Source: Clostridia bacterium
Lineage (GTDB): Bacteria; Bacillota; Clostridia; Oscillospirales; CAG-272
Assembly: GCA_017501245.1 (NCBI GenBank)
Contig: JAFVXI010000017.1
Location: 1-40,841, forward strand
Length of the DNA: 40,841 bases
Reading direction: 5' to 3'
Shown: positions 2,957 through 40,841 of the stretch, in pieces
Layout of the letters: each line of letters opens with the position of its first letter
Position numbering within the stretch: position 1 is the stretch's first letter
Notes under the pieces: model-generated
What the model was told of the DNA's origin: nothing
What the model saw: only the letters and a program-made list of their open reading frames with translations
Databases searched by the model: none
Translations under genes and position numbers: made by a program

Positions 2957-2981
2957 TAAAAAATGCCGCCCGAGGGCGGCA
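2957..2981 (-). terminator. Intra-operon terminator between scfA and scfB
   Basis: On the minus strand a GCCGCC/GGCGGC stem (2965-2970 with 2975-2980, four-base loop) is followed by six T (2958-2963). It lies seven bases past the scfA stop codon. It should end most transcripts after the peptide gene and let a fraction read through into scfB. Confidence 0.85.
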
Positions 2982-2986
2982 ATTTA

Positions 2987-3133: not shown

Positions 3134-3166
3134 AATATCAACCTCCCGAAAAAGATTTACTCCTTG

Positions 3167-3195
3167 ATTATATCATAGTAATATTTTATTGTCAA
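3167..3195 (-). promoter_or_regulatory. Consensus sigma-A promoter of scfA
   Basis: On the minus strand TTGACA (3190-3195) and TATAAT (3167-3172) are separated by exactly 17 bp. Both hexamers match the consensus perfectly, which suggests strong constitutive expression of the SCIFF operon. Confidence 0.92.
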
Positions 3196-3252
3196 GGTGG
3201 GGGATAAATATTTTTTGTCAAGTTAAAGCAAGCTAAGATAGGTCAAAAGTGC

Positions 3253-3281
3253 TTGATTTATTCGGACTCTTATGCTAGAAT
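3253..3281 (+). promoter_or_regulatory. Promoter of the M20 amidohydrolase gene
   Basis: TTGATT (3253-3258), a 17-bp spacer and TAGAAT (3276-3281). It is divergent from the scfA promoter and places the transcript start near 3288. That excludes the farther upstream in-frame codons and supports ATG 3328 as the start. Confidence 0.75.
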
Positions 3282-3327
3282 GAGTTTGTATATAAAAAAT
3301 GCGCATATGCGTACGGGAGGAAAAGGT

Positions 3328-4656
3328 ATGATCAAGAGAATAGACGAGGCCGTAGAGCGCCACCGCGAGCTGATACTGCGTGCGGAGAGGGACATCTGGG
3401 GCATGCCTGAGACGGGATATAAGGAATATAAGACGACGGCGTATCTTGCCGAGCGCTACGAGGCCCTCGGATATAAGCTCGTAAGGCCCGAAAATATCAC
3501 CGGCTTCTATACCGAGATCGACACCGGAAGAGAGGGACCTACCCTCCTTATCCTCGGCGAGCTCGACTCAGTCATCTGCCCCGGACATCCCGAGTCGGAT
3601 CCCGAGACGGGCGCCGTTCATTCCTGCGGCCATCACGCACAGTCTGCGACGCTGCTCGGCATCGCCGCCGCCCTCACCGAGCCGGGGATGCTCGACGGGC
3701 TCTCGGGTCGCATCAAGCTTTGTGCCGTCCCCGCAGAGGAGCTGCTCGAGATCGGCTTCAGAACCGAGCTTCGCAAAAAGGGCATTATCCGCTATCTCGG
3801 CGGCAAGAGCGAGTTTATGTCAAGGGGCTTCTTTGACGACGTCGACTTAGCGTTTATGGTCCACACCTCCAAGGTCAACACATCGCTGCTCGGCTCGGTC
3901 GGCTGTATAGCAAAGACCGTCACCTATAAGGGTAAGGCGGCCCACGCAGGCGGCAGCCCCTGGAACGGAGTAAACGCCCTCTACGCCGCAACTGCGGGCA
4001 TCAATGCGGTCAACTCCATAAGAGAGACCTTTAAGGATGCCGACCTCATCAGATTCCATCCGATAATCACCGAGGGCGGCTCGATGGTAAACGCCATCCC
4101 CGAGCGTGCCAAGATAGAAACCTACGTCAGAGGCTTAAGCTATGACGGCATTAAAAATACTAACAAGCGCATCAACCGTGCGCTCGTCGGTGCGGCTCTT
4201 TCGCTCGGCGCAAACGTCGAGATCGAGGACTCCCCGGGATACGCTCCGCTCCACAATTCTCCCGAGATGATCAAGGTTTATTGCGATGCTTATAAGGAGC
4301 TGACGGGCGAGGAGATAAAACCTACGAACGAATATTCCACCGGCAGCACCGATATGGGCGATCTCTCTGCGGTCATGCCGGTCGTGCATCCCTACTGTGC
4401 GGGCTCCGTCGGCACCTCTCACGGCGCTGACTACTATATCAATGATCCCGTCGCCGCCTGCGTCACGAATGCGAAGGTTCAGCTCGTTATGGCAAGGCTA
4501 TTACTCTCCGACGGCGCAAAGCGCGCTTGGGAGATCGTCGAGGGCTACGACGCACCCTTTAAATCCATCGCCGAATTCTTAGAGTATCAGGACTCGATCC
4601 TCGACTCGGGTGACAGAATAGAGTATAACGAGGAGGGAGCCAACGTAAGGCTCTGA
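3328..4656 (+). CDS. M20 family amidohydrolase (AbgB-like)
   Basis: The 442-aa protein is a zinc-type amidohydrolase of peptidase family M20, nearest in type to p-aminobenzoyl-glutamate hydrolase subunit B and IAA-amino-acid hydrolases. Motifs seen are GELD near 77-80, HSCGHHAQSA from 98 (metal ligands, in place of the usual CGHDxH), catalytic-type EE at 137-138 and SHGADYYI near the C-terminus. A dimerisation insert lies between the two halves of the catalytic domain. Start ATG 3328 follows GGGAGG by eight bases and fits the promoter. No signal peptide is seen, so it is probably cytosolic, cleaving an amide or N-acyl amino acid; the substrate is unknown. The PHP gene follows after 30 bp, probably co-transcribed. 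Confidence 0.88.
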   Translation: MIKRIDEAVERHRELILRAERDIWGMPETGYKEYKTTAYLAERYEALGYKLVRPENITGFYTEIDTGREGPTLLILGELDSVICPGHPESDPETGAVHSCGHHAQSATLLGIAAALTEPGMLDGLSGRIKLCAVPAEELLEIGFRTELRKKGIIRYLGGKSEFMSRGFFDDVDLAFMVHTSKVNTSLLGSVGCIAKTVTYKGKAAHAGGSPWNGVNALYAATAGINAVNSIRETFKDADLIRFHPIITEGGSMVNAIPERAKIETYVRGLSYDGIKNTNKRINRALVGAALSLGANVEIEDSPGYAPLHNSPEMIKVYCDAYKELTGEEIKPTNEYSTGSTDMGDLSAVMPVVHPYCAGSVGTSHGADYYINDPVAACVTNAKVQLVMARLLLSDGAKRAWEIVEGYDAPFKSIAEFLEYQDSILDSGDRIEYNEEGANVRL

Positions 4657-4686
4657 TCTCCTAAGACAAACAAGGAAAAAGACTAA

Positions 4687-5544
4687 ATGTGCAAAGAAAA
4701 GTTGACAAAATACGATAAATTATGCGATCTGCACGTTCATTCTCACTTCTCGGACGGAACGCTCTCGCCGACAGAGCTTGTGGAGCTTGCCGAGGCGTCG
4801 GGGCTATCCTCGATCGCCCTGACCGACCATAATACGATCGGCGGCGTGCCCGAAGTGCTCAGTGCTGCCGAGGGTAGCGCGGTTAAGGCAATAGCAGGCG
4901 TTGAGCTTTCCACCGACTATAACGGAGTGGAGCTGCACGTCCTGGCTCTCGGCTTTGGCTGTGGCGCCTACGGAAGGATAAACGAGCTGACCGAGGATTA
5001 TATGAAGAGAAAGAGGCTCGCTAACAAGAAGCTCATCTCGGATCTTATCGAGGCCGGCTACGGGATATCGCCCGAGCGCATCTACGAGGGTGCTATGGGC
5101 GAGGTCAACAGAGCTCATATCGCTATGGAGCTTGTCAGATGTGGCTACGTTGAATCGAGGAAAGAGGCGTTTGACGACATCCTCGCCTCGGGCGGCAGGT
5201 TCTACACTCCGCCGAAGAGAATTTCCACCCCGGAGTGCATTGATTTTATCGCATCTATCGGAGCGAGGAGCGTGCTTGCTCATCCCTTCTTAAATATCGA
5301 CGAGGCGACGCTACGAGGGCTGCTCTCCGAGGTCGGGGACAGGCTCGACGGCATGGAGGTCATCTATTCCGAGTACGATGAGGAGACGACGGCGCTCTCG
5401 TATAAGATCGTAGAGGAATACGGGCTTCTGCCCTCGGGAGGCAGCGACTTCCACGGCGGGAACAAGCCGGATATATCTCTCGGCACGGGAAGGGGCTCAC
5501 TCAGAATTCCCCTCTCCTTTGCAGAGGGTCTCGGGCTTATCTGA
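4687..5544 (+). CDS. PHP-domain metal-dependent phosphoesterase
   Basis: The 285-aa protein has the PHP fold: DLHVHSHFSDGT from Asp14 (His16, His18, His20), LTDHNTIGG, LAHPFLN and SGGSDFHG, which together supply the metal ligands. It resembles YciV/RNase AM-type proteins, which remove nucleotides from short RNAs or act on 3',5'-nucleoside bisphosphates. An inserted helical region sits in the middle, as is usual for this group. An AAGGA is about 12 bases before ATG 4687, which is rather far. Probably second in an operon with the M20 gene. The exact substrate is uncertain. Confidence 0.85.
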   Translation: MCKEKLTKYDKLCDLHVHSHFSDGTLSPTELVELAEASGLSSIALTDHNTIGGVPEVLSAAEGSAVKAIAGVELSTDYNGVELHVLALGFGCGAYGRINELTEDYMKRKRLANKKLISDLIEAGYGISPERIYEGAMGEVNRAHIAMELVRCGYVESRKEAFDDILASGGRFYTPPKRISTPECIDFIASIGARSVLAHPFLNIDEATLRGLLSEVGDRLDGMEVIYSEYDEETTALSYKIVEEYGLLPSGGSDFHGGNKPDISLGTGRGSLRIPLSFAEGLGLI

Positions 5545-26694: not shown

Positions 26695-26715
26695 TGTCTC
26701 ACCGAACAGAATATG

Positions 26716-26793
26716 AGAATCAGGGGTGCCTCTGGCTGAGACGGCGCGTGCCGAACCCTTTAACCTGATACGGATAATGCCGGCGTAGGGAGA
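26716..26793 (+). ncRNA. TPP riboswitch (THI element)
   Basis: The conserved blocks appear in order: CAGGGGTGCC, CTGGCTGAGA, ACCCTTTAACCTGAT, GGATAATGCCGGCGTAGGGA. This is the thiamine-pyrophosphate aptamer. It sits between the promoter and thiT and is followed by a terminator, so TPP binding should stop transcription before thiT. Confidence 0.96.
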
Positions 26794-26819
26794 TTTTTTA
26801 TCGAGAGTAGAATCTTTTC

Positions 26820-26850
26820 GCACGGATCTTGTATCTGTGCGGAATTTTTA
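26820..26850 (+). terminator. Riboswitch expression-platform terminator
   Basis: GCACGGAT (26820-26827) pairs with ATCTGTGC (one G-U pair) across CTTGT, then GGAATTTTT. It is the switchable terminator of the TPP riboswitch; the thiT ribosome site follows at once. Confidence 0.8.
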
Positions 26851-26870
26851 TTTATAGGAGGTTTCTCGCT

Positions 26871-27446
26871 ATGAGAAACAAAAAGCTTTTATGTCTCGTT
26901 GAGTGCGCCGTTATGATCGCACTCGCATTCGGTCTCTCGTTCGTCAAGCTCTGGCAGATGCCGCTCGGCGGCTCGGTTACGCTCTGCAGCATGCTTCCGA
27001 TCCTGCTTATCGGTCTTCGCCATGGTCCGCTTGTCGGTCTTGGCACGGGCTTCGTTTATTCGCTCACGCAGCTTGCGCAGGGCTTTATGGAGGGCGATAT
27101 CGCCTATGCGGCAGGTGACGAGGTTGTCTTTATCGTCGCTATGCTCTTCGACTACATCCTGCCCTACACGCTCATCGGTCTTTCGGGCATTCTCGGCAAG
27201 AAGAACAGATGGATGCCCATCGCAGGCATGTCCGTTGCCGTTGCGCTTCGCTTCGTCTGTCACTACCTCACCGGCGTCACCATCTGGAGCCAGTGGACGC
27301 CCGACGGCTGGGCATCCTGGATATATTCCGCAGCTTATAACGGCGGTTATCTTATCCCGGATCTCGCTATCACTCTCGCCGTTGCCGTCTTTATGCTCTC
27401 ATCACCCGCAATGCGCCGCCTTTTAGGCATCAAAGAGGAAGCGTAA
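26871..27446 (+). CDS. thiT: ECF thiamine transporter S component
   Basis: The 191-aa protein has six membrane helices. The thiamine-site residues of ThiT are recognisable: RFVCHYLTGV (His121), IWSQW (Trp129, Trp132) and AAYNGGYLIPD (Tyr146, Asn147). As S component it captures thiamine and works with the shared EcfA/A'/T module, which is not in this window. ATG 26871 follows AGGAGG by nine bases; the upstream in-frame start overlaps the terminator and is rejected. The TPP riboswitch confirms the vitamin. Confidence 0.95.
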   Translation: MRNKKLLCLVECAVMIALAFGLSFVKLWQMPLGGSVTLCSMLPILLIGLRHGPLVGLGTGFVYSLTQLAQGFMEGDIAYAAGDEVVFIVAMLFDYILPYTLIGLSGILGKKNRWMPIAGMSVAVALRFVCHYLTGVTIWSQWTPDGWASWIYSAAYNGGYLIPDLAITLAVAVFMLSSPAMRRLLGIKEEA

Positions 27447-28596: not shown

Positions 28597-29445
28597 TCAC
28601 AGTCCGATCATCCTATACAGCTGTCTGTACTTTAAGGGGGAATGCCCGACCCTCTCTCGAAAGGTCTTAATAAAGTAGGTATAGGAGGCGAAGCCGCAAG
28701 CCTCGGCTATCTTCGTCACGCTGTCCGAGGTGGTCAAAAGAAAGCTCCTTGCACGCTCGATGCGATAGTCTGTCAGATAGTCGTGCAGTGTCCTGCCGGT
28801 GTGCGCCTTCATAATGCGTGAGAGATAGTAAGGATGATAGTGCATATCCTCGGCGATGGATTTATTGGAGAGCGTCGGGCTGCCGTAGTGCTGCCGTATA
28901 TGCGAGATGATCCTCTCGGCGAGCCTCGCCTCCGCACCTGCCGCCGTCGGCACCCTCAGCATCGAGATCAGAGCCAGCTTGCAGGCTGCCGACGCCGTCT
29001 CGCGAAAATAAGCCTCTCCTGAGAAAAAGCTATCGACCGCAGAGGCAATATGCTCTCGCACGCCGCTCGCACCTCTGATTACGATCGGAGCGGTGAATGG
29101 CTCAATTACGTCATATTTTGGAACCTTTTCTTTACAAAAGCTCTCCTCCGTGGCTGTAGTGAGCGAGCTTTCAAGCATATGACTGCGATCGGTCAGATCA
29201 AGGTCGATAACGTATATCCTGACGTCCTTAGGGCTTTGAAAGTTGAAGCGATATCTTGTTTCGGGCGGCAGAAAAACGGCGGTCTCCTCTCCCACGGGGT
29301 AGCTGACTCCGTCAGCAACTATGCTGCCCTCGCCAAAGAGGACGAAAAAGAGGCGGCAGTCGTAGCAGACGTTATAGGTCGCGGGGGGAGTGTAAGTCGT
29401 ATGCATAGCTGCATAGCGAAGGAATGGATTTAAGGCGCTCAGCAT
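28597..29445 (-). CDS. AraC-family transcriptional regulator
   Basis: The 282-aa regulator has an N-terminal cupin-like sensor domain (VLFGEGSIVADGVSYPV, AVFLPPETRYRF). A C-terminal pair of helix-turn-helix units follows (SIAEDMHYHPYYLSRIMKAHTG; SVTKIAEACGFASYTYFIKTF; RVGHSPLKYRQL). Such proteins usually sense a small carbohydrate or metabolite and activate a neighbouring operon. It is divergent from the redox operon at 29606-34826, which it most likely controls. ATG 29445 follows GGAG by seven bases. Confidence 0.9.
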   Translation of the reverse strand: MLSALNPFLRYAAMHTTYTPPATYNVCYDCRLFFVLFGEGSIVADGVSYPVGEETAVFLPPETRYRFNFQSPKDVRIYVIDLDLTDRSHMLESSLTTATEESFCKEKVPKYDVIEPFTAPIVIRGASGVREHIASAVDSFFSGEAYFRETASAACKLALISMLRVPTAAGAEARLAERIISHIRQHYGSPTLSNKSIAEDMHYHPYYLSRIMKAHTGRTLHDYLTDYRIERARSFLLTTSDSVTKIAEACGFASYTYFIKTFRERVGHSPLKYRQLYRMIGL

Positions 29446-29474
29446 CGCTATTCTCCTTGTGGATTATTGTGTTT

Positions 29475-29503
29475 ATTATAGCATTTTCTCGGAAAATATG
29501 CAA
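29475..29503 (-). promoter_or_regulatory. Promoter of the AraC gene with overlapping dyad
   Basis: On the minus strand TTGCAT (29498-29503), 17 bp, TATAAT (29475-29480) with TGC before it. The spacer is a hairpin-like dyad, ATTTTC-TCG-GAAAAT (29483-29497). Protein bound there would block the promoter, suggesting autoregulation. Confidence 0.65.
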
Positions 29504-29523
29504 GAGTAAGTTTGTTTTGTTAT

Positions 29524-29541
29524 GCTTTCCGTTCGGAATGC
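29524..29541. promoter_or_regulatory. Candidate operator of the redox operon
   Basis: GCTTTCCG-TT-CGGAATGC is an 18-bp dyad with one mismatch pair. It shares TCGGAA with the dyad at 29481-29501 and lies just upstream of the operon promoter. It may be an AraC-regulator site. Confidence 0.45.
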
Positions 29542-29565
29542 TTATATTTGCCGCCGACCACTCCG

Positions 29566-29574
29566 TGCTATAAT
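29566..29574 (+). promoter_or_regulatory. Extended -10 promoter of the redox operon
   Basis: TGC then TATAAT (29569-29574), 31 bases before ATG 29606. The -35 region is poor, as expected for an activator-dependent promoter. Confidence 0.65.
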
Positions 29575-29605
29575 GATGGTGAAAACAAAAGAGAGGCGGA
29601 TCGAT

Positions 29606-30631
29606 ATGCGTTTTTCGGTTGGATACAGCACGGGATGCTCGCCATCCTTCGTTGACGAGATCATCAAAAGGCGAGAGAGTATATACGAGGTTTATTTTTC
29701 CTGGGGCAATTTTCCCAGCGGCCGCAACGATCAGACGAGAGCGGCGGGGCTGACCCCCTGGGAGGCTCAGGCGAGGCAGATCCGTGACGTCTCGAAAATC
29801 GCCGAGGCGGGCATTGGGCTGAACCTGTTATTTAACGCCGCCTGCTACGGCGAGCGTGCGCAGTCCAGGGCTTTGTTCAACGAGGTGGGAGACACGGTCG
29901 ATTATCTCCTAGCCTATAATTTGAAGAGCGTAACGACGACCTCGCCCCTGATCGCAAAATTCATAAAGCAGAACTTTAAGGACGTTGAGCTACGAGCCTC
30001 TGTCAATATGGGCATCGGAAGCATCCTTGCCATGGAATACGTTGCCGAATACTTTGACAGCTTCTACGTTAAAAGAGAACTGAATCGGCAACTCGGCGCA
30101 CTTGTGAGGCTCAGGGAGTGGTGCGACGGATGCGGCAAGGAGATGTATATTCTTGCAAACAGTGGCTGCCTGAACGACTGCTCCTTACATAGCTTCCACG
30201 ATAATCTCGTTGCCCACGAGACAGGGATAGCCGGGATGGATAACGCCTACGCCTTTGAAAGCTCCTGCTCAAAATATCTCTCGCGTCCGGACGGCGCCCA
30301 CCGCCTCCTTGATGCGACCAGCTATATCCGCCCCGAGGACGTCCATCTTTTCGAGGGGCTCGTGCCGGCGATGAAGCTTGCAACGAGGGTGCACAGATCG
30401 CCCGAGGCGGTGCTGCGGGCGTATATCGACAGGGCGAGATACGTCGGAAATATAGCCGACCTTCTTGAGCCCACACACACGGCAGCCATCTACCCCTACG
30501 TCGTTGAAAACAGCAGGATAACGAGCGAGATGGCGGGGGGCGTGCTGAGTTATACGAATGAAAATCAAGCAATCATAAGATTGGAGGAGGATTATGCTTA
30601 CCAGCAAAATGATCAAGGAAGCGGCCTTTGA
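29606..30631 (+). CDS. U32-family protein, probable Fe-S
   Basis: The 341-aa protein looks like the peptidase U32 family (COG0826 type): a beta/alpha barrel N-terminal half, then ASVNMGIGSILAMEYVAEYF, VKRELNRQL and the cysteine motif ILANSGCLNDCSLHSFH. Cysteines 188 and 192 (C-x3-C), plus 173, 176 and 221, resemble the cluster ligands of UbiU/UbiV and TrhP/RlhA-type proteins, which catalyse oxygen-independent hydroxylations rather than proteolysis. ATG 29606 fits the promoter; earlier in-frame codons lie upstream of the transcript start. It is the first gene of the operon and overlaps the next by 38 bases. A [4Fe-4S] role is inference. Confidence 0.7.
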   Translation: MRFSVGYSTGCSPSFVDEIIKRRESIYEVYFSWGNFPSGRNDQTRAAGLTPWEAQARQIRDVSKIAEAGIGLNLLFNAACYGERAQSRALFNEVGDTVDYLLAYNLKSVTTTSPLIAKFIKQNFKDVELRASVNMGIGSILAMEYVAEYFDSFYVKRELNRQLGALVRLREWCDGCGKEMYILANSGCLNDCSLHSFHDNLVAHETGIAGMDNAYAFESSCSKYLSRPDGAHRLLDATSYIRPEDVHLFEGLVPAMKLATRVHRSPEAVLRAYIDRARYVGNIADLLEPTHTAAIYPYVVENSRITSEMAGGVLSYTNENQAIIRLEEDYAYQQNDQGSGL

Positions 30632-31676
30632 GGCCGGCGCAGACCTTTGCGGCATAGGACCGCTCTCGCGCCTTAAGGGTGCCCCCGACGTAATGAATCC
30701 TCGTTTTCTCTTTCCCGAGGCTAAGAGCTGTATTGCACTTGCCTTCCGTATCCCGAGGGGAGTGCAGAGAGGAATAGAGGAGGGAACGCAGTTTTATCAG
30801 TATCCATCGATGGCATACGGCGGCATCAATGAGATCCACGCTCCGGCAGTCCTCTATCACGTAGGAAAGCTGATTGAGGACGAGGGCTACGAGGCCTTCG
30901 TTTACCGCAACACGGGTGCGAGGGGCGCCGTCTCGGATATGGACGGCTCGCCCGGAAATTCGCTCTCTCCCGAGGAGCAGATAGAGGTCAGCCGACATGC
31001 AAAGGGCAAGACGGCGCACCACAGGAGCGTGCAGTTTACAAGACCTACGCGAGAGGGCAATCAGCCGCCCGACCTCCAGTTTCAGTTCAGGCTTGCGGCA
31101 GTGGCGTGCGGACTTGGCGAGATAGGATACAGCAAGATGCTTCTGACGCCCGAGTTCGGGCCCTTGCAGAGGGTGGCGTTTATTTTCACGGACGCCGTGC
31201 TTGAATACGACGAGATGTATTCTGGCGAGCCGCTCTGCCGTAAGTGCGGCGCTTGCGTCAGGGAGTGTCCCGGCGGTTGCATCCCCCCTATCGGATCGGG
31301 CAGGACGGTAAAGGTCGACCTCGACGGAAAGCTCTGCGAGTGGGGCGACATAGATATGTGGCGATGCTATGCCTTCTACACTCACGGCGGCAGATATTAT
31401 AATCCCTTCGTGCCTAAGGAGGTCTTTGACAAAAACGAGGGCGGATGCGTGGATCTTCTCGAGGGTGTCACAGACGTGGCAAACGAAAAGGAGGTCGTGA
31501 AGGTATATACCGCACTCGAAAAATACTTCCCGAGCTGGGTCGGCTACAATATGGCAAAATGCGGCGGCTGCATCCGCGGCTGCGTCAGCATGCTTGAAAA
31601 AAAGGGCGGCTGCATGGAAGGTAGGTTCGTCTCACCCCTTCGCCGCGAAAAAAAGCCATGGAGGATGGATAGATGA
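30594..31676 (+). CDS. QueG-like double [4Fe-4S] protein, copy 1
   Basis: The 360-aa protein resembles epoxyqueuosine reductase (QueG, COG1600) and more distantly reductive dehalogenases. It has an N-terminal alpha/beta domain, the family signature CGLGEIGYSKMLLTPEFGP (172-190), a ferredoxin motif C215-x2-C218-x2-C221-x3-C225-P, and second-cluster cysteines 258, 323, 326 and 330. It is longer than the other two copies because of an insert at about 105-160. QueG needs cobalamin; whether this one does is unknown. GGAGGAGG precedes ATG 30594, inside the end of the U32 gene. Three diverged copies in one operon make queuosine repair unlikely as the role. Confidence 0.75.
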   Translation: MLTSKMIKEAAFEAGADLCGIGPLSRLKGAPDVMNPRFLFPEAKSCIALAFRIPRGVQRGIEEGTQFYQYPSMAYGGINEIHAPAVLYHVGKLIEDEGYEAFVYRNTGARGAVSDMDGSPGNSLSPEEQIEVSRHAKGKTAHHRSVQFTRPTREGNQPPDLQFQFRLAAVACGLGEIGYSKMLLTPEFGPLQRVAFIFTDAVLEYDEMYSGEPLCRKCGACVRECPGGCIPPIGSGRTVKVDLDGKLCEWGDIDMWRCYAFYTHGGRYYNPFVPKEVFDKNEGGCVDLLEGVTDVANEKEVVKVYTALEKYFPSWVGYNMAKCGGCIRGCVSMLEKKGGCMEGRFVSPLRREKKPWRMDR

Positions 31677-32605
31677 ATAAAGGCAATAAGGATAGACCCG
31701 TGCTGACGGCGGCTATGATCAAGGAGAGGGCGCTCGCCCTCGGTGCAGGCGCCTGCGGCATCGGAGATATAAGGCATTTCGTCGGCGACGACATCCAGCA
31801 TAACCCCCTCTCCATACTCCCGAATGCTACCGCCGTTATCGGCTTCGGAATCCCCGTGCCGAGGGGGCTCTATTTCGCAATGAGGGATAAGCGGCAGTAC
31901 TTCAACTATACGAGCCTCGGAGTTAAGTATACCGACGAGAGCTTCGCCGAGATTTTCCTCCTTAAAATGGGAGCTATGATAGAGGATGCGGGCTACGACG
32001 CCTGCCTTCAGCGCAGCGTGCCCGGCTTCAGGGTGAAGGGAGATAAGTCCACGAATCCCGAAACGGCGAGGACCTACGAGCTGGAGTTTGCCTCCTCGGT
32101 CGGCGATGGTAAGGCCGTGCCCGACGTTATTATCGACTATAACAAGGCGGCCGTCGTCTGCGGCCTCGGCGAGATAGGCATGCACGGCAGGGTGATAAAT
32201 CCTAAGTACGGCAGCTTTATGCGTTACGTATTTATCATCACGGATATGCCGCTTGAGTGTGACGAGCCGTTTTCGGGGTCGCTATGCGACAGGTGCGCTA
32301 GATGCATCGATGCCTGCCCCGGCAGGGCCATCGGTGAGGAGGGTGTCGACAGCTGGCAATGCAGCGTTTACTACCGTGGCGCACACAGGTCAAACCCCTT
32401 TATGACCGACGAATGCCTTAAAGATCATCCCGACAGAGAGGCTATACTTAACGGCGAGATGAGGTTTGATAAGGCGTCGGCCGAGGCGATCTATCCATAT
32501 CTTGATTTTTTGCCGAAAACGCATTTCGGCTACCTTGCCTGCCTTTGCGCAAAGGCGTGTGAAATTGCGTGCTACGAGCATCTTAAGGAGGTGGGAAAGC
32601 TGTGA
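31673..32605 (+). CDS. QueG-like double [4Fe-4S] protein, copy 2
   Basis: The 310-aa paralogue keeps the signature as CGLGEIGMHGRVINPKYGS (173 on), the motif C205-x2-C208-x2-C211-x3-C215-P, and second-cluster cysteines 230, 292, 296 and 300. GFGIPVPRGLYFAM matches FRIPRGVQRGIEE of copy 1. It overlaps copy 1 by four bases (ATGA) with GGAGG upstream. Divergence between copies suggests distinct jobs, perhaps a heteromeric complex. Confidence 0.75.
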   Translation: MNKGNKDRPVLTAAMIKERALALGAGACGIGDIRHFVGDDIQHNPLSILPNATAVIGFGIPVPRGLYFAMRDKRQYFNYTSLGVKYTDESFAEIFLLKMGAMIEDAGYDACLQRSVPGFRVKGDKSTNPETARTYELEFASSVGDGKAVPDVIIDYNKAAVVCGLGEIGMHGRVINPKYGSFMRYVFIITDMPLECDEPFSGSLCDRCARCIDACPGRAIGEEGVDSWQCSVYYRGAHRSNPFMTDECLKDHPDREAILNGEMRFDKASAEAIYPYLDFLPKTHFGYLACLCAKACEIACYEHLKEVGKL

Positions 32606-33561
32606 GAGAAAGAATAATCTCGCTTGCTAAGACCTGTGACGCGGATATCGTGGGCTTTGCCCCCGCATCGAGGTTCGATAAGGATGATGCGATCTTTAAG
32701 ATCCTCCCCGAGGTAGAAACGGTCATCGGCCTCGGCTTCCGTGTGCTGAGAGGAATCTACCGAGGAGTAGAGGAGGGAACGACCTACTATCAGTACACCA
32801 CGATGGGCGTTGAAAACCTTGAGGAGACGGTTATGCCCATGGCGCTTTTGCGTATCGCAAATCTCATCGAGAGCGAGGGTGCGATAGCGATACCCCAAAG
32901 GCGCTCTCCGCTTATTCGTAGCGATGAGGACTCGACCGACCCCGAGGTGGACTATACCGACGTTTACAGAGGCGTCACGGCGGAAAACCAGCTCGACTTT
33001 CTCGACTGTGCCATAAGGTGCGGACTTGGCGAGCGCTCGATGATCGGCAGCCTCCTGACGCCGGAGTTCGGACCCTTTATCCGTTATTGCTTCATCTTGA
33101 CCGATATGAAGCTTGAGGCAACGCCCGTGCAGGAGCCCACACTTTGCGACGGGTGCGGAGAATGCGTAAGGGCGTGCCCCGGCGGTGCGATAGGCAAGGA
33201 CGGAGTCATCGACAGCTGGCGCTGCGCCGTCTACTATAACGGTGCAAACGGCTCGAAAAATCCTTTTATGCCCCCCGACGCCTTCTCATCCTTTGATGAT
33301 GAAAAGAGAATGGCTATCATCGGCGGCAGCTACCCCTTCGATAAGGATGAGGCGCGTGAGATCCTCGACAATATCTATTTCTATCCGCCCGCCAAGCACT
33401 TTTACAGGACGTCGATATGCGGCAGAGCGTGCGACAGAGCCTGCTATGCACATCTTGAAGAAAAGGGCTTGATAACCAAAAAATATAACCGCCCCTTCAG
33501 AGTGCGAGAGGAATGGAGTCTGCCTCTCGATCAGTTTGAAAAGAAGGGAAAGGAGAGCTGA
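32602..33561 (+). CDS. QueG-like double [4Fe-4S] protein, copy 3
   Basis: The 319-aa third paralogue has CGLGERSMIGSLLTPEFGP (140 on), C182-x2-C185-x2-C188-x3-C192-P, and second-cluster cysteines 208, 273, 277 and 281. FRVLRGIYRGVEEGTTYYQY is the shared N-terminal signature. The start is GTG 32602, whose GTGA overlaps the stop of copy 2, with GGAGG upstream. A basic C-terminal tail of about 30 residues is unique to this copy. Confidence 0.75.
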   Translation: MRERIISLAKTCDADIVGFAPASRFDKDDAIFKILPEVETVIGLGFRVLRGIYRGVEEGTTYYQYTTMGVENLEETVMPMALLRIANLIESEGAIAIPQRRSPLIRSDEDSTDPEVDYTDVYRGVTAENQLDFLDCAIRCGLGERSMIGSLLTPEFGPFIRYCFILTDMKLEATPVQEPTLCDGCGECVRACPGGAIGKDGVIDSWRCAVYYNGANGSKNPFMPPDAFSSFDDEKRMAIIGGSYPFDKDEAREILDNIYFYPPAKHFYRTSICGRACDRACYAHLEEKGLITKKYNRPFRVREEWSLPLDQFEKKGKES

Positions 33562-33563
33562 AA

Positions 33564-34826
33564 ATGAACGAAAAGCTAAGAATAGTTGTCATAGGATGCG
33601 GAAGATTTGCAAAAAACTTCGTTCCGCTCTTTAAGGCGCACCCCGTCGTCGAAAAGGTTTGGGTCTGCGATCTGATAAAGGAGAGAGCAGAGAGCTACTC
33701 GGAGGAGTTTGGAGTTGAGGTCTTCAAAAGCTTCGAGGAGGCGCTCGCCTCCGACGAGGTCAACGCCGTTGCGATCTTTACGCAAAGATTTAAGCACGGG
33801 CAGATGGTCATCGACGCCCTCAAGGCAGGAAAGCACGTTTATTCTTCGGTGCCCTGCGCTATCTCCGTCGACGAGATAAGGGAGATAGAGAGGCTCGTGC
33901 GAAAGACCCGACTGACCTACTCAATGGGAGAAACGGGCTTCTACCGTGCCCCTGCGATCTTCTGCCGCGAGGAATTTGAGAAGGGCAGCTTCGGCAGGTT
34001 CGTCTACGGCGAGGCGCAGTATAACCACGATATAAGGAATATGGAGGAGAGCTTTAAAAGCTCGGGCGGTGACGAGTGGCGTCGTTTTGCGGGCATTCCG
34101 CCATTCTTCTACCCCTCGCATTCAACGGCTATGATACTCTCGGCTATGCCCGGCGTATATGCAAAGAGGGTAACGGCTCTCGGCTTTGGCGGCAGCCCCC
34201 GCACGGATATCTACGGACGTGATGGTCAGAACAACTACGATAATCCCTTCGCCGCCGAAACGATGCTGATGGAGCTGTCAAACGGCGGTGTCGCACGCAT
34301 CAGCGAAAACCGTTGCCTCGGCTGGGTCTCTCCCGAGACCTATATCAGCCAGTTCTACGGCACCGACGCAGGCTATGAGTTTTCGGTAGCGCATCACCAT
34401 ATGGCAAAATGGGATCCCGAGCGCCCCGGCAAGGTGAAAATGACGGACGTGACCGACCTGCTTCAGCCCGACACCGTCACTGCCATGATAAAGAGTGACT
34501 ACTCCTCGGCGATCCAGGCGATAGCCGATTCAGCCGGCTTCAGCGAGACCTCGCCTATCCAGCCTACCGAGCGCATACCCAAGGAGTTCGAGGGCGTACC
34601 CAACAGGCATAACGGAACGCACCACTTCCTGATCGACGACTTCTGCCGCGCCTTTGAAACGGGCAAGCTCTCGCCCACGAACATCTGGGCTGTGGCAAGG
34701 TTCAACATCCCCGGCCTCGTAGCGCACGAGTCGGCTCTGCTTGGCGGCGTTCCGCTCGAGGTGCCGGATCTTGGCGACCCGCCCTCGGATTGGCCCGTCC
34801 TCGATTACAGAACGATGGATAGGTAG
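33564..34826 (+). CDS. Gfo/Idh/MocA-family NAD(P) oxidoreductase
   Basis: The 420-aa dehydrogenase has an N-terminal Rossmann fold (LRIVVIGCGRFAKNFVPLF). The usual E-K-P catalytic loop reads KHVYSSVPCAISV, so the common lysine is absent there. The C-terminal alpha/beta domain carries FFYPSHSTAMIL and the late NGTHHFLIDDFCRAF. Family members oxidise or reduce sugars, inositols and amino-sugars with NAD(P). It starts two bases after copy 3, with AGGAGA as ribosome site. Its presence suggests a carbohydrate-like substrate for the operon; that is inference. Confidence 0.85.
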   Translation: MNEKLRIVVIGCGRFAKNFVPLFKAHPVVEKVWVCDLIKERAESYSEEFGVEVFKSFEEALASDEVNAVAIFTQRFKHGQMVIDALKAGKHVYSSVPCAISVDEIREIERLVRKTRLTYSMGETGFYRAPAIFCREEFEKGSFGRFVYGEAQYNHDIRNMEESFKSSGGDEWRRFAGIPPFFYPSHSTAMILSAMPGVYAKRVTALGFGGSPRTDIYGRDGQNNYDNPFAAETMLMELSNGGVARISENRCLGWVSPETYISQFYGTDAGYEFSVAHHHMAKWDPERPGKVKMTDVTDLLQPDTVTAMIKSDYSSAIQAIADSAGFSETSPIQPTERIPKEFEGVPNRHNGTHHFLIDDFCRAFETGKLSPTNIWAVARFNIPGLVAHESALLGGVPLEVPDLGDPPSDWPVLDYRTMDR

Positions 34827-34893: not shown

Positions 34894-34932
34894 AAGAGGA
34901 CGTTTCGGCAAACCGATCCGTCCTCTTTTTTT
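34894..34932. terminator. Bidirectional terminator
   Basis: AAGAGGACG (34894-34902) pairs with CGTCCTCTT (34919-34927), with an inner CGG/CCG, and a T-run follows on the plus strand. The minus strand is T-rich beyond it as well. It separates the redox operon from the convergent surface-protein gene. Confidence 0.85.
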
Positions 34933-35022
34933 ATTAAATGAGTGAAAATGCAGCTGTTAATAATCTGAATTTGCCCAAACGGCAACATTCGCCGCGGGTG
35001 ATAACCGGAGCTGCGTATCAAT

Positions 35023-38000
35023 TCACTTGATGCTGATCGTGAATGTGCCGGTGGCGGTTGATGCGTACAGCTTAACGGCTATATAGTAGGTGTTGCCTGC
35101 GGTGAGTGAATACGAGATAGAGAAGTCCCTGTCTCCGCCATTATCGTCGCTATGGGTCAGCTCGCTATGGCTTGCGCTGTATAGAGTGCCATAGGTGTCG
35201 AGGCTGCTCGCCGAGCTGATGGTATAGCTTTTCGTCGTCTCGGGGACGAATACGTAATATACGACCTGGCCGACGACGGAGACATTGACCGTGTAGGTTT
35301 GACCCGCCGTTGCTATGATCGCTCTTTCAAAGGACGAGCCGTCGTGAAGAGCGTTGTATTCCTCCTCTGTCATCCACCCGGCGTAGAGCGTTACGTCTTT
35401 TCCGGCGTAGAAGATTGAGGGAAGAGCGGCACCCTCGAGCAGCTCGTTGTCAAACCAGCCTAAAAATACGTAGCCATCTAAGGTCAGCTCGGGGAGGGCA
35501 ATCGCTGTTGAGCTCGTTATGCTCTCCGGCTCCTCTCTACCGTTTGAAACAAAGGTGTAGACGTATTCCTCACCGATATAACCCCAATAAACCGGTCGGT
35601 TTGAAGGATTCCAGCTTGTGCTCCATGCTTCGGGCTGAGCTGCCGCCTCACAGTAAATAATAAGCGACGTACATCTCGAAAATGCGCTGTCTTTCACGGT
35701 GGCGACGCCCTCGGGAATAACTATGCTCACAAGAGCCGTGCAGCCGGAGAATGCGTAAGAGTTAATGGTCATAAGACCTGCGGGCAGGCTTATATCCGTG
35801 AGAGCCGTGCAGCCGGAGAATGCGTAAGAGTCAATGGTCGTAAGACCTGCGGGCAGGCTTATATCCGTGAGAGCCGTGCAGCCGGAGAATGCGTAATAGC
35901 CAATGGTCGTAAGACCTGCGGGCAGGCTTATATCCGTGAGAGCCTTGCAGCCGGAGAATGCATAAGAGTCAATGGTCGTAAGACCTGCGGGCAGGCTTAT
36001 ACCCGCGAGAGCCGTGCAGCCCTGGAACGCCGAATAAGGAATAGACGTTATTCCGTCGCCAAGAGCTACCGACGTAAGGGTTGTGCATCTCTGGAATGCG
36101 CTTGAGCTCAGCTTCGTCGCTTGGTCTGAAACTATGACCGTTCTGATCGATTCGGGGATCGAATAAGTGTAGTAGGTGGTGCTGTAGCTGCCGGCGACCG
36201 AATAATGATATCCGCTCGTCGAGGACGTGCTGCTCTTATAGCCGAAGATATATCCGAAATGAGCCTGATATCCCGTAGCGGAGGGGGTTGCACCGATGAA
36301 GGGCAGCGTTATCTTTTCTAAGGCGGAGCAACCCGTGAAGACGCCGTCGCCAATGCTCGTAACACTGGCGGGGATGCTTATCTCGGAAAGAGACGAGCAA
36401 TTACGGAATGCATAGCTGTTGATGGCGGTAACGGTGGAGGGAATGCTTACCTCCTTAAGAGCCGAGCAGCCCGAGAAGGCGTAGGAGGGTATAGTCTTGA
36501 TGCCGCTGCCTATGACGACGCTCTCGAGCTTCGAGCAGCCCGAGAAGGCGTAGGATCCCAGGGTGGTAACGCCATCGGGAATAACTATGCTACGAATAGA
36601 CGAGCAGCCCGAGAAGGCGTAGGAGCCTATACCGGTCACCTTATCTCCGATAACCAGGTCGGTAAGGGACGCGCAGGATGAAAAGGCATTGTCGCCGATG
36701 CTCGTGATGCTATCGGGCAGGGAAACAGAGGTGAGACTCTTGCATCCGTAGAAGGTGTATTTTGCAACCGTGTTGCCGCCCCTGACTGTAACCTCGGTCA
36801 AGGAAGCAGGGATCAGAGTCGAGTTGTCGGAATACGTGCTTGCGCCGAAGATATATCCGAGATGAGTCTTGGTTGAATTAGCCGACTCTCCGGTGAAGGG
36901 GAGGGATATGGACTCAAGCGAGGAGCATTTTGAGAAGGCTCCGACACCTATCTCCCTGACGCTGTCGGGGATAAAGACCTCGGTAAGCGCCGCGCAGCCT
37001 CCGAATGCGGAATCCTCTATCTTGGTAACGGTGGTGGGAATAGCTATTTCCTCAAGAGAACTACAATTGTAAAAGGCGCGTGAGGGGATAGTGGTAATTC
37101 CGCTGCCGAGGGATACGCTCGCAAGAGCCGAGCAGCCCGAGAAGGCGGAGCCTCCGAGCTCGGTGACGCTGTCAGGGATGTCTATTTCAGCTAAGGAAAC
37201 GCAGCCCAAGAAGGCGCACGCTCCGATGGTCAGGACGCCCTCGCCGATCGTCACCTCCTCAAGTGCTGTGCAGCCCCGGAAGGCGTCGAGATTGATTGCT
37301 TGAACGCTGCTCGGGATAGCTATGCTCTCGAGCATAGAGCAGCCCTGGAATGCACAGTTGCCGATGCTGCCTATGCCCTCATCGAGCGTTATGCTCTTCA
37401 GAGTGGCGCATTTATAGAAGGCGTAGTTGCCGATGGCTGTCGAACTACCCTTTACGTTAACTTCTTCGAGCGACTTAGGGATCGCAAAGGTATAGTACGT
37501 GGCGCTACTGCTTCCGGAGCCGGAAACAATATAATGATAACCGCTCGACGAGGAGGTGCTTGTGGAATAGCCGAAGATAATGCCGAAGTGCGCCTGATAG
37601 CTGCTTGCAGAGGGGCTCGCTCCGACAAACGGCACGGTTATCGAAGAAAGAGAGGAGCAATTAGCGAATGCATAGGGGGCAATGCTTACAACGCTCTCGG
37701 AAATAACGATATCACCGAGGGCGGAGCATCCGTAGAAGGAATATGAGCCTATCTTCGTGATGCCGTCACCCAGCGATACGTCACTGAGAGCCTCACAGCC
37801 GTAGAACGCATAGCCGCCGACCGACTCTACGCTATCCGGGATAATAACCGAGGTAAGGCTCTTGCAGTTATAGAACGCATAATCGTTTACGGCTGCTACG
37901 CCTTCGGGAACTGTGACGTCGGTCACAAGCTCTCCGTTAAGATAAAGCCCGTGAGCATGATAGAGAGGATTTGAAGTGGAATTACCAAACGTGATGGCGC

Positions 38001-40841
38001 ACCAGGCGTCGATATCCGTGATATGCACCGCCGAAAGAGACGAGCATCTAGAGAATGCATATGCACCTATGGCAGAAACCTTCCTCGGGATGCTGATCTC
38101 TGTGATACCGGAGCCCGAAAACGCATAGTCGCCGATCGACGTGATCTCTTCGTTGAGATTTATCCTCGTGATGCCCGAGCAATTCTCGAAGGCACCGCAG
38201 TTTATGTATCCGCCGGTTACGGTAACCTCTCTGAGGCTTTCGGGGATGACGTAGCTTTTCGAGGTGGTGGTTGATGTACTTGAGCCATAGTAGCGCTGAG
38301 AGACCGTGACGCCGCCCACGTAGATCTCTTCGCCGAAAATGTAACCGAGGGGATACTGGTACGTGCTACTCGGAGTCTTTAAGCTGCCTCCTATGAAGGG
38401 CAGGGTGATAGACTCGAGCGAGCTGCATCCGAAGAATGCGGCGGAGCCGATGCTCTTAACGCTATCGGGGACGGTAACGCTCTTCAGCCCACGGCAATAG
38501 TTAAACGCTTCGCCGGCTATATGTGTCAAGGTTTCGGGGAGCGATAGCTCGGCGAGGGCATAGCAGCTGCCAAACGCCTTGCTTTCAATACGGCTGACGC
38601 TCGCACCGAATGAAAGCTTCGTAAGCGAAGAGCAAAGAATAAATGCTTCGGAATTGATGGTGGTAACGCCGTCGCCGATAACGACCTCGCTTAAGGCGCT
38701 GCATGAGTAGAAGGCGTTACTGCCGATCGCCTTGACGCCGTCGCCGATAACAACCTTCTTGAGATCCTTGCAATTTCTGAAAGCCATATCAGAAATGGAC
38801 GTTGCGTTATCGCTGATGATCACGGTGTTAAGCGACGAAGGTATTTTGTAGGTGTAGTAGGTGGTGCTGTTGCTGCTGGCGACCGAATAATGATATCCCG
38901 TCGTGCCGGAAGATGTAGTGCTTGTATAGCCGAAGATATAGCCGAAGTGCGAGGCGTACGACGATGCGTCGTTGCGCGATCCGACGAAGGGGATGGTGAT
39001 CTCGGCAAGAGAGGAGCAGCCCTCAAACGCACCTGTGCTGATCGATGAAACCCCGTCGGGGACGGTGATGGCCGTGATGCCCGTGCAGTTCAGGAATGCC
39101 TGAGCGCCTATGCTCGAGACGGCATCGCCGATCGATATATTTGTGAGAGTATTGCAATTCTCAAAGGCTTTTCCGAATATTGTACCGCCGTTAATATTGA
39201 CGGACTTGAGGTTTTTCGGTATATAGTAGGTCTTGTTTTCGCTGGCGGTCTGGTATATGGGGTCGCCACCGTCGTATTCGTCCGTGCCGAAGATATAGCC
39301 GAATCGAGCAGTGTAGGATGAGCTCGTATTCGTTAAGCTGCCTCCCACGAAGGGGAGCTCTATCTCCTCAAGCGAATAGCAGCCGCTGAAGGCGCCTGTT
39401 CCTATAGCTTCTACGCTGTCCGGTAGCTTAGCGCTCTTAAGCCTTACGCAGTTCTTAAACGCCTCGGCTGCGACGACCCTTACGGGGAGGGAATTATATT
39501 CGTCGAGGATCTCAATTTCGGTGGCGTATCTGTCGATCAAGCCGTCTGCTATGTAATAGGTGCCGTCATACGAGAGGGAATAATGAACGGTGGTTTCCCA
39601 TTCTGCCACCAGGGTGATATCCTCGGTAACGACGTGACCCGCAAATGACCACTTCTCACCGTCAACGAACCAGCCGAGGAAGGTGTATCCCTCGCGGGTG
39701 GGAGACTCGGGTCTTGTCGCCTTCTCCCCATCCTCAACCTCCTGGCTATCATAGGTCTCACGTCCTCCGTTCGTATCGAAGGAAACGGTAAACCTAGCGA
39801 CGTCAAGAAGCTCGGCAACCTGTGCCTCAAGCACTGCGATCTTAGCGACGTTAGTCGCATCGGCAGTTTGAAGTGCGAGGATCAGAGCGTTGATGGCATC
39901 TACGTCCTTTGCGTGGTTTTCGGTCAGAATGTTAATATTAGTTGTTATTTCGCTGTTGATCTGCTCGATCCTTGATGTATTGTCGGATATCCGAAGCTCA
40001 AGGTCTGCGACAGAGGTGATGTGCTCGCTTTGAAGAAGGGTGAGCTCATCTGCGAGCTCTTGTCCGTTAGCTTCGAGAGCCTCGACCGCTGCCTTGTAGT
40101 CGGCTTCAACCTTTGCGATAGCGTCGGCGTTGTCTTTGTCAGCCTTGTTCAGCGCCTCGAGATCCTTGGTGCGCTGAGCGGCAAGCTCGGCGAGAGCCTT
40201 TTCGTTTGCGGCGTTGGTAGCTTCGAGAGCCTCGACTGCCGCCTTGTAGTCTGCTTCGACCTTCGCGATAGCATCGGAATTCTCCTTGTCAGCCTTGTTC
40301 AGCGCCTCGAGATCCTTGGTGCGCTGAGCGGCAAGCTCGGCGAGAGCCTTTTCATTAGCGGCGTTGGTAGCTTCGAGAGCCTCGACCGCTGCCTTGTAGT
40401 CGGCTTCAACCTTTGCGATAGCATCGGCGTTGTCCTTGTCAGCCTTGTTCAGCGCTTCGAGGTCCTTGGTGCGCTGAGCGGCAAGCTCGGCGAGAGCCTT
40501 TTCATTAGCAGCGTTGGTAGCTTCGAGAGCCTCGACCGCTGCCTTGTAGTCTGCTTCGACCTTTACGATAGCATCGGCGTTGTCCTTATCAGCCTTGTTC
40601 AGCGCCTCGAGATCCTTGGCACGCTGAGCGGCAAGCTCGGCGAGAGCTTTTTCGTTTGCGGCGTTGTCTGCCTCAAGTGCCTCGACTGCCGCCTTGTAGT
40701 CTGCTTCAACCTTTGCGATAGCATCGGCGTTGTCCTTATCAGCCTTGTTCAGCGCCTCGAGATCCTCTGTGCGCTGAGCGGCAAGCTCGGCGAGAGTTTT
40801 TTCGTTTGCGGCGTTGTCTGCCTCAAGTGCCTCGACTGCCG
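35023..40841 (-). CDS. Giant BspA-type LRR surface protein, N-terminus cut off
   Basis: The frame ends at TGA 35025-35023 and stays open through the right edge, giving at least 1939 residues; the N-terminus is outside. A GTG at 39834 is not a credible start, because the coiled-coil coding continues in frame. Order from the N-terminal side: about five 50-aa helical repeats (to about 40081); another helical stretch; an InlB/Listeria-Bacteroides-type repeat (FTVSFDTNGGRETYDSQ...GYTFLGWFVDGEKW); a long series of BspA-like LRR_5 repeats (AFSGCTALTDISLP type) broken by six aromatic islands; a second GYVFLGWF domain; and a C-terminal beta domain like PPC (VVYYVFVPETTKSYTI...GNTYYIAVKLY). No LPXTG or anchor is at the C-terminus. 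It is probably exported and adhesive. Confidence 0.85.
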   Translation of the reverse strand, partial: AVEALEADNAANEKTLAELAAQRTEDLEALNKADKDNADAIAKVEADYKAAVEALEADNAANEKALAELAAQRAKDLEALNKADKDNADAIVKVEADYKAAVEALEATNAANEKALAELAAQRTKDLEALNKADKDNADAIAKVEADYKAAVEALEATNAANEKALAELAAQRTKDLEALNKADKENSDAIAKVEADYKAAVEALEATNAANEKALAELAAQRTKDLEALNKADKDNADAIAKVEADYKAAVEALEANGQELADELTLLQSEHITSVADLELRISDNTSRIEQINSEITTNINILTENHAKDVDAINALILALQTADATNVAKIAVLEAQVAELLDVARFTVSFDTNGGRETYDSQEVEDGEKATRPESPTREGYTFLGWFVDGEKWSFAGHVVTEDITLVAEWETTVHYSLSYDGTYYIADGLIDRYATEIEILDEYNSLPVRVVAAEAFKNCVRLKSAKLPDSVEAIGTGAFSGCYSLEEIELPFVGGSLTNTSSSYTARFGYIFGTDEYDGGDPIYQTASENKTYYIPKNLKSVNINGGTIFGKAFENCNTLTNISIGDAVSSIGAQAFLNCTGITAITVPDGVSSISTGAFEGCSSLAEITIPFVGSRNDASSYASHFGYIFGYTSTTSSGTTGYHYSVASSNSTTYYTYKIPSSLNTVIISDNATSISDMAFRNCKDLKKVVIGDGVKAIGSNAFYSCSALSEVVIGDGVTTINSEAFILCSSLTKLSFGASVSRIESKAFGSCYALAELSLPETLTHIAGEAFNYCRGLKSVTVPDSVKSIGSAAFFGCSSLESITLPFIGGSLKTPSSTYQYPLGYIFGEEIYVGGVTVSQRYYGSSTSTTTSKSYVIPESLREVTVTGGYINCGAFENCSGITRINLNEEITSIGDYAFSGSGITEISIPRKVSAIGAYAFSRCSSLSAVHITDIDAWCAITFGNSTSNPLYHAHGLYLNGELVTDVTVPEGVAAVNDYAFYNCKSLTSVIIPDSVESVGGYAFYGCEALSDVSLGDGITKIGSYSFYGCSALGDIVISESVVSIAPYAFANCSSLSSITVPFVGASPSASSYQAHFGIIFGYSTSTSSSSGYHYIVSGSGSSSATYYTFAIPKSLEEVNVKGSSTAIGNYAFYKCATLKSITLDEGIGSIGNCAFQGCSMLESIAIPSSVQAINLDAFRGCTALEEVTIGEGVLTIGACAFLGCVSLAEIDIPDSVTELGGSAFSGCSALASVSLGSGITTIPSRAFYNCSSLEEIAIPTTVTKIEDSAFGGCAALTEVFIPDSVREIGVGAFSKCSSLESISLPFTGESANSTKTHLGYIFGASTYSDNSTLIPASLTEVTVRGGNTVAKYTFYGCKSLTSVSLPDSITSIGDNAFSSCASLTDLVIGDKVTGIGSYAFSGCSSIRSIVIPDGVTTLGSYAFSGCSKLESVVIGSGIKTIPSYAFSGCSALKEVSIPSTVTAINSYAFRNCSSLSEISIPASVTSIGDGVFTGCSALEKITLPFIGATPSATGYQAHFGYIFGYKSSTSSTSGYHYSVAGSYSTTYYTYSIPESIRTVIVSDQATKLSSSAFQRCTTLTSVALGDGITSIPYSAFQGCTALAGISLPAGLTTIDSYAFSGCKALTDISLPAGLTTIGYYAFSGCTALTDISLPAGLTTIDSYAFSGCTALTDISLPAGLMTINSYAFSGCTALVSIVIPEGVATVKDSAFSRCTSLIIYCEAAAQPEAWSTSWNPSNRPVYWGYIGEEYVYTFVSNGREEPESITSSTAIALPELTLDGYVFLGWFDNELLEGAALPSIFYAGKDVTLYAGWMTEEEYNALHDGSSFERAIIATAGQTYTVNVSVVGQVVYYVFVPETTKSYTISSASSLDTYGTLYSASHSELTHSDDNGGDRDFSISYSLTAGNTYYIAVKLYASTATGTFTISIK
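35734..36078 (-). repeat. Five 69-bp near-identical LRR-coding repeats
   Basis: Copies start near 35734, 35803, 35872, 35941 and 36010, exactly 69 bp apart, and the inner ones differ at only a few bases. Each codes for 23 residues of the type GLTTIDSYAFSGCTALTDIS. Nucleotide-level identity, unlike the rest of the LRR region, points to recent tandem duplication. Confidence 0.9.
40081..40841 (-). repeat. 150-bp tandem repeats coding a coiled coil
   Basis: The period is exactly 150 bp (starts at 40081, 40231, 40381, 40531, 40681 and 40831). Each unit codes for 50 residues, including DKDNADAIAKVEADYKAAVE and KALAELAAQRTKDLEALNKA. The charged, alanine-rich pattern predicts a long alpha-helical stalk. 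The copies differ mainly at synonymous sites. The array leaves the window on the right. Confidence 0.92.

Follow-up and report, generated by a model that had tools for sequence, protein, structure and literature searches.

A stretch of 40,841 nucleotides from a Clostridia bacterium (GenBank assembly GCA_017501245.1, contig JAFVXI010000017.1; referred to below as the window) carries an operon in which a U32-like gene is followed by three genes, here q1, q2 and q3, for proteins resembling the epoxyqueuosine reductase QueG, and by a gene for a Gfo/Idh/MocA-fold protein, with the gene for an AraC-family regulator lying divergently upstream. This raises the question of what the three QueG-like proteins are and what they might do together with a U32-like partner. 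Known Class III corrinoid/iron-sulfur (Fe-S) enzymes, as described in excerpts of PMC4646009, reduce a transfer RNA (tRNA) base or remove halogens. We report that q1-q3, judged by their sequences, belong to a third, previously unplaced clade of the QueG/reductive dehalogenase superfamily, and that their array recurs across many species, which is more than chance. Tentatively, and with a likelihood that we put somewhat below even, we suggest that the operon is an AraC-inducible anaerobic catabolic module in which a corrinoid-type Fe-S reductase and its U32 partner would act on a plant-derived glycoside or modified sugar.

The divergent AraC gene and the five coupled plus-strand genes described in the first-pass annotation were recovered in place, including their overlaps. 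The regulator gene (28597-29445, minus strand) encodes a protein with a C-terminal HTH_18 part (Pfam, E 8.7e-23) and a weak cupin-type N-terminal part that scores under the Cupin_2 cut-off. On the plus strand, the U32-like gene (29606-30631; 341 residues) overlaps q1 (30594-31676; 360 residues) by 38 bases, q1 and q2 (31673-32605; 310 residues) meet in ATGA, q2 and q3 (32602-33561; 319 residues, GTG start) meet in GTGA, and a two-base gap separates q3 from the last gene, which encodes the Gfo/Idh/MocA-fold protein (33564-34826; 420 residues). A Shine-Dalgarno-like sequence, read by eye, lies ahead of every gene. The products of q1 (A-type), q2 and q3 are predicted Fe-S/corrinoid-type reductases.

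Part of the first-pass description of q1-q3 as QueG paralogues stands, namely the presence of both cysteine sets; the proteins are set apart from QueG by a clade of their own, by the lack of a DYH motif and by scores far below the family cut-off. Specifically, the NCBIfam QueG model (TIGR00276, cut-off 200) gave 26.0, 51.0 and 36.4 bits for q1, q2 and q3, respectively, and the reductive dehalogenase (RDase) model (TIGR02486, cut-off 160.35) gave 35.9, 56.5 and 40.8 bits; with Pfam, Fer4_16 stayed under its cut-off for q2 and Fer4 exceeded it for q3. A quick tree of 91 sequences and a second, careful one built from 46 of these (leaving out four long-branch sequences and all sequences labelled 'rdhweak', with the remaining groups limited in number) agree on a split into three groups. 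In the careful tree q1-q3 with their relatives (100/99), QueG (100/99) and the RDases (100/97) each occupy one side of a branch, and the phylogenetic comparison proposed in the first-pass annotation thus placed the copies outside the QueG clade. Within the new clade of the careful tree, q2 (100/99) and q3 (100/100) are separate orthogroups and the q1-like (A-type) proteins group at 97/98. In the quick tree q2 and q3 are joined at 91, and 'B-type' is a mere label because the q3-like proteins of gene pairs stand apart from them.

Homology to RDases and QueG extends over the N-terminal module up to and including the first cysteine set (hhalign 99.4-99.8%); the Class III enzymes bind base-off cobalamin in a nitroreductase-type module. 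Like QueG (PDB 5D08), q1-q3 have an N-terminal domain followed by two cysteine sets, and the q2/q3-type profile matched QueG at 99.8%; unlike QueG, they lack DYH, fall in a separate clade and are encoded as three paralogues together with AraC and U32-like genes. Likeness to RDases (PceA, 4UQU; NpRdhA, 6ZXU) comprises an hhalign match of 99.4%, a GLGE...LTPEFGP loop, the cysteine sets and the alignment of q1 R193 with PceA Arg305, whereas the separate clade, scores of 35.9-56.5 against 160.35 bits, a longer stretch ahead of the last cysteines and starts that, by eye, have no twin-arginine-type leader distinguish them. A tandem duplication of an ordinary QueG gene was ruled out by the tree and the missing DYH motif, and an RDase proper by the score below cut-off and the separate clade.

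The first cysteine set reads CxxCxxCxxxC in all three proteins, and the second consists of C258 plus C323/C326/C330 in q1, C230 plus C290/C292/C296/C300 in q2 and C208 plus C273/C277/C281 in q3. Within each orthogroup, conservation reaches 97% or more at the cysteines of both sets, consistent with the two [4Fe-4S] clusters of Class III enzymes. The DYH motif, catalytic in QueG (PMC4646009, in excerpt), is absent from all 44 sequences of the new clade and from all 247 q1-q3 orthologues; of the 20 QueG matches over the cut-off 17 were used and all 17 have it, as do 10 of 10 shorter QueG-like proteins below the cut-off, and among other sequences found with the RDase model it occurs in none of the eight stronger and in three of the 11 weak ones. 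The window's genome encodes a separate QueG-like protein that carries DYH. An arginine at the position of PceA Arg305, an active-site residue of RDases which according to the same excerpts has no QueG equivalent, was found in 246 of the 247 orthologues (q1 R193, 84/84; q2 R184, 82/82; q3 R161, 80/81, with one lysine). Thirty-three positions upstream stands an acidic residue (Asp in 84/84 q1, D160 in the window; Asp or Glu in 82/82 q2; Glu in 81/81 q3) that, by a spacing equal to that from Asn272 to Arg305, matches the position of QueG Asp130/PceA Asn272; Arg305 numbering was counted along the alignment, with the PceA and QueG residues taken from the excerpts of PMC4646009. Moreover, no gene of the operon is better conserved than q1, in which identity among 84 orthologues reaches at least 97% at 224 of 360 positions (q2, 91/310; q3, 92/319).

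Conservation of the locus was assessed in two ways. A search of 59 related genomes, including the window's own, found the same array in six others, where identity to the window was 80-86% for q1, 56-69% for q2, 57-68% for q3 and 48-55% for the U32-like protein. A second scan, with the q1 alignment, covered named genomes of bacteria and archaea and used two peptide patterns only, which favours close relatives; the best 80 of 176 relatives were kept and, together with the window and three others, gave 84 loci gathered by q1 similarity. Full flanks were available for 66 of these (18 were without). Having been counted on loci chosen by q1, the synteny figures are conditional on q1; L021, L024 and L025 were omitted because, with contigs equal in length to those of L098, L054 and L080, they were taken to be the same contigs (L and G numbers denote loci and genomes), and downstream genes were counted on the same strand up to 6.5 kb from the q1 start. 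The order q1-q2-q3 was found in all 66 loci, a U32-like gene ahead of q1 in 64 and a divergent AraC gene adjoining the operon in 55, which bears out the earlier view of one AraC-linked, co-conserved unit with a gene order that recurs in many genomes. A small cupin gene is present in 33 loci, between q1 and q2 in 29 of them; the window's operon lacks one. The Gfo/Idh/MocA gene is optional (24/66), a DUF5696 gene takes part in 12 loci, and no locus has both.

The gene set is accessory. The array was found in five of 36 genomes of the genus, several of which are incomplete, giving a patchy distribution, and the U32-like family scored above 350 bits in 23 of 391 genomes of the class (34/391 at E 0.001). 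A host is named in the titles for 52 of the 80 kept loci, in every case a herbivore: goat, roe deer, sheep, water deer, water buffalo or dairy cattle in 50 titles and rabbit (Lapin) in two; the other 28 titles are study codes. In a viral collection four pattern matches were obtained, none of them a relative. As to variant arrays, L034 (11084-12384) and L039 have an extra membrane protein of about 300 residues, EamA-like by eye, between q1 and q2. In the sister genome G002 a short stretch (L009; G002:C14:1950-2228) is 53% identical to part of q3 and has internal stop codons, possibly a decayed copy, and an intact array was not seen on the part of the contig examined (L031).

The first gene had been annotated as a U32 protein with a C-x3-C motif, and this holds in so far as a U32-type partner can be reached through intermediates; the kinship is remote, and there is no Pfam U32 (PF01136) match at E 0.1 and no NCBIfam U32 match. 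In the window's genome PF01136 found only two other genes, both true U32. The best PDB match of the U32-like profile was marginal (U32 protein 5D88, E 0.016). Because the direct comparison of the core family with true U32 proteins failed (5%), the kinship rests on intermediates: the core family matched eight distant relatives (100%, E 5e-45), which in turn matched 32 true U32 proteins (98.9%, E 3e-17). Two distant relatives in G083 pass the PF01136 cut-off (29.8 bits; 34 bits summed over the frame) and one in G070 fails it with 20 bits. Homology to the U32 barrel was thus reached by way of intermediates only, and we regard the first operon protein as a divergent, remote U32 relative by this transitive route.

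Conserved residues of the U32-like protein are C80, C188-x3-C192, C221, H198 and RPED; the four cysteines are present in 39 of 39 core sequences, and C221 is not retained in distant ones. U32 oxidases have the motif CX6CX15CX3C (PMC11574389, in excerpt). As in these oxidases (UbiU/UbiV, TrhP, RlhA; PF01136), CX3C is retained and aligns, together with C-terminal barrel residues, via the intermediates, whereas C80 and C221 stand in place of the remaining oxidase cysteines and a direct PF01136 match is missing. A C-terminal CX3CX2CX2C occurs in 23 of 64 U32-like relatives and is absent from the window protein. The 24 loci with a Gfo/Idh/MocA gene are without this motif, the 23 with the motif are without the gene and 17 have neither; loss of the motif with gain of the gene was discarded as independent evidence, there being only four changes of each on the tree. 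Four distant U32-like relatives (L152:7136-8377, L155:7142-8440, L174:6629-8065, L175:7753-8928) lie in natural-product-like clusters that by eye are of peptide or polyketide type, with very large open reading frames resembling nonribosomal peptide synthetases and with acyl-ligase and radical-SAM-like genes; a U32 function in hydroxylating natural products is conceivable.

Relatives of q1-q3 also occur in smaller arrangements. A q1-like gene is found with a U32 gene and without q2/q3 in L027, L148, L169 and L171-L173, q3-like/q1-like pairs adjoin AraC genes without U32 in L028, L029, L246, L247, L250 and L251, and a q1-like gene stands without an adjacent U32 gene in L243 (also in L241 and L245, which are close to contig ends). 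In addition, double proteins of approximately 770-850 residues look like two tandem QueG/RDase-like modules (L249:7545-9860, L032:7273-9582, L239:4757-7315). The pairs and fusions suggest that two types work together, and because related genes are paired in some loci and fused end to end elsewhere, the multi-subunit reductase proposed at first is plausible, with the paralogues acting as one enzyme. At L032 an AraC-like gene adjoins the double protein, and genes that by eye resemble a glycyl-radical enzyme and its activase lie upstream (2286-5308). The 2.1-Mb genome G070 has many relatives of q1-q3 in separate loci (L238, L240-L245), several adjoining AraC genes; this expansion resembles the one known for dehalogenases in bacteria that dehalogenate.

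RNA-modifying enzymes are found in both parent families, QueG acting on tRNA (PMC4646009) and the U32 proteins TrhP and RlhA hydroxylating RNA bases (PMC11574389; both sources in excerpt), which would suit an operon that installs or reduces a base modification in RNA or modifies a cofactor. We consider this improbable: a linked AraC gene, patchy occurrence and optional glycosidase-like genes count against it, as do the many q1 relatives of G070 with their adjoining AraC genes, and the window's genome already has its own DYH-carrying QueG-like gene and two true U32 genes.

The last gene agrees in fold with the annotation as a Gfo/Idh/MocA protein (PF01408, 78.2 bits), while its role as a plain dehydrogenase is improbable. 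V96-P97 stands at the position of the EKP motif, and because the lysine of this motif, present in the C-glycoside dehydrogenase DgpA, is replaced by V-P in 28 of 28 aligned members, the protein is probably not a plain dehydrogenase. DgpA (7XR9), although it differs in having EKP, is the nearest solved structure by E-value. E123, Y127, Y153, H155, Y183 and H186 are invariant in the 28 members and identical in the alignment with AmGH109A (6T2B), a glycosidase of glycoside hydrolase (GH) family 109 that depends on nicotinamide adenine dinucleotide (NAD), with which the protein thus shares fold, V-P and six residues; finding V-P together with these residues in 28/28 is not proof of the family, and the Pfam GH109 C-domain match is weak (E 0.044). 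We therefore lean, tentatively, towards an NAD-dependent enzyme of glycosidase-like character. The DUF5696 protein is, we assume, glycosidase-like as well, the support found here being a weak DUF6259 match, and a literature search found no paper naming DUF5696. Alternation of the two genes fits a last step in which a glycoside is handled.

Neighbours in some of the smaller relatives' loci include GH28, GH2, GH10, GH38, GH116 and alpha-L-rhamnosidase genes, and also genes for DUF4432, an arabinose-isomerase-like protein and an FGGY kinase. A sulfoquinovose link via the L173 isomerase was weak, L-arabinose isomerase scoring better, and the amidohydrolase adjoining that isomerase had no PDB match. 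The alpha-L-rhamnosidase lies near one pair (L028), and together with a transporter that is not fixed, the placement of the clade on the RDase side in the quick tree and the G070 expansion with its adjacent AraC genes, it could point instead to the reduction of a phenolic or another secondary metabolite of plants, that is, of an aglycone from which the glycosidase-like gene product only strips the sugar. This differs from the module proposed here solely in the class of substrate and is, in our judgement, a possible if rather unlikely explanation, as sugars fit better with the isomerase, kinase, DUF4432 and GH28 genes that surround some U32 plus q1 relatives (L173, L148).

For the catabolic module, the conserved scheme would be U32 - q1 - (cupin) - q2 - q3 - (Gfo/Idh/MocA or DUF5696 protein). 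A plant-derived glycoside or modified sugar would induce the operon through AraC; q1 may be the substrate-converting subunit and q2/q3 the partner reductase subunits of a heteromer, each having a base-off corrinoid served by two [4Fe-4S] clusters. Together with the U32 Fe-S protein these could perform C-O chemistry that needs no O2, namely reductive C-O cleavage, dehydroxylation or demethylation. The glycosidic bond or the resulting sugar would be dealt with by the cupin and by the last enzyme, which can be of either kind (GH109-like or DUF5696). The oxygen-free hydroxylation of a carbohydrate-like compound put forward at first can be called compatible with the sequences, not more. A literature search for demethylation of 4-O-methylglucuronic acid gave no paper, and no description of a U32 protein combined with three such reductases was found in open-licence PubMed Central articles, judged by titles and the beginnings of abstracts.

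Several observations weigh against this proposal. It is drawn from sequence throughout, and its substrate, structure and biochemistry, including the reaction and cobalamin binding, are what we infer. The last enzyme, whether Gfo/Idh/MocA or DUF5696, is missing from 30 of the 66 loci, and PmdC, which is no glycosidase, likewise lacks the EKP lysine. Ordinary neighbours of full operons are mixed, with no fixed transporter, and for this reason the sugar context comes mostly from the smaller relatives, among which L170 and L172 have no recognised sugar gene as neighbour. The candidate positions of the Class III tyrosine, which lies above the corrin, depend on the alignment (Y75, N79 or E80 in q1; Y86 or E89 in q2; N72 or E75 in q3), and in q1 and q3 two of them hold Asn or Glu. 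No cobalamin riboswitch was found in the window, in its genome (73% complete), in G005 or in G051, and the frequency among genomes that carry the operon or one of its relatives (23/28) is similar to that in the class (294/382, counted with stricter filters and with some carriers included), so that the riboswitch is uninformative as proof of B12 use. Binding of cobalamin by q1-q3 is likely by kinship, and counts on this side while kinship is its basis.

That basis, the unplaced tyrosine and the three carriers without a cobalamin riboswitch would also suit q1-q3 as corrin-free electron-transfer or scaffold Fe-S proteins, with the U32 protein doing the chemistry. This alternative, which overlaps with the catabolic module except for the role of q1-q3 (the likelihoods given here do not sum to one), appears unlikely to us. 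A B12-binding_2 protein is encoded in 17 of 18 carriers (G026 being without; there was no matched negative set), and these carriers probably use B12. Furthermore, q1 looks like the catalyst because it is much more conserved than the U32-like protein (80-86% against 48-55% identity) and because some q1-like genes have no U32 gene next to them (L243; pairs L246, L248, L250).

Turning to expression signals of the operon, an alignment of nine AraC/U32 intergenic regions (that of L043 aligned poorly) outlines a candidate promoter region at 29510-29574. A GTTTGTTTTGTTATG element lies at 29510-29524, with a second, weak repeat near 29530; the GTTTGTTTTGT-like element (29510-29520) is found with some variation in eight of the nine regions and a -10-like TATAAT box (29569-29574) in seven, L036 and L043 deviating. 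The U32-like reading frame as originally listed begins at ATG 29522, 5' of the TATAAT box; because this box and the GTTTGTTTTGT-like element both precede the U32 gene, ATG 29606 is most likely its start. A simple sigma-70 promoter scan of the window did not list the TATAAT promoter. Downstream, a likely intrinsic terminator (34894-34933, plus strand), read by eye, has a 9-bp stem AAGAGGACG/CGTCCTCTT and a T-run; a terminator scan did not list it, its 16-base loop exceeding the range of the scan. Elsewhere in the window there are a thiamine pyrophosphate (TPP) riboswitch (26712-26808) immediately 5' of a ThiT/YuaJ thiamine transporter gene (26829-27446), a Gut-1 RNA (Rfam RF01706; 12531-12603) and a very long BspA-type leucine-rich-repeat protein (35023-40839; 1603 residues from the first listed start), the open frame of which continues up to the window end.

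In a wider form of the proposal, which we hold to be doubtful, the clade would be a third Class III branch whose members act as hetero-oligomers in which up to three paralogues join a divergent U32 protein. It would perform a new kind of C-O chemistry without O2, on a glycoside from plants or a methylated sugar, and would have radiated into many substrate-specific, AraC-controlled copies in herbivore gut Clostridia. If this is true, such a clade, large and linked genetically to a U32 protein and, among its relatives, to sugar genes, would reveal a new class of anaerobic chemistry of plant material, and would provide a handle on the role of those U32 proteins that serve neither RNA nor quinones.

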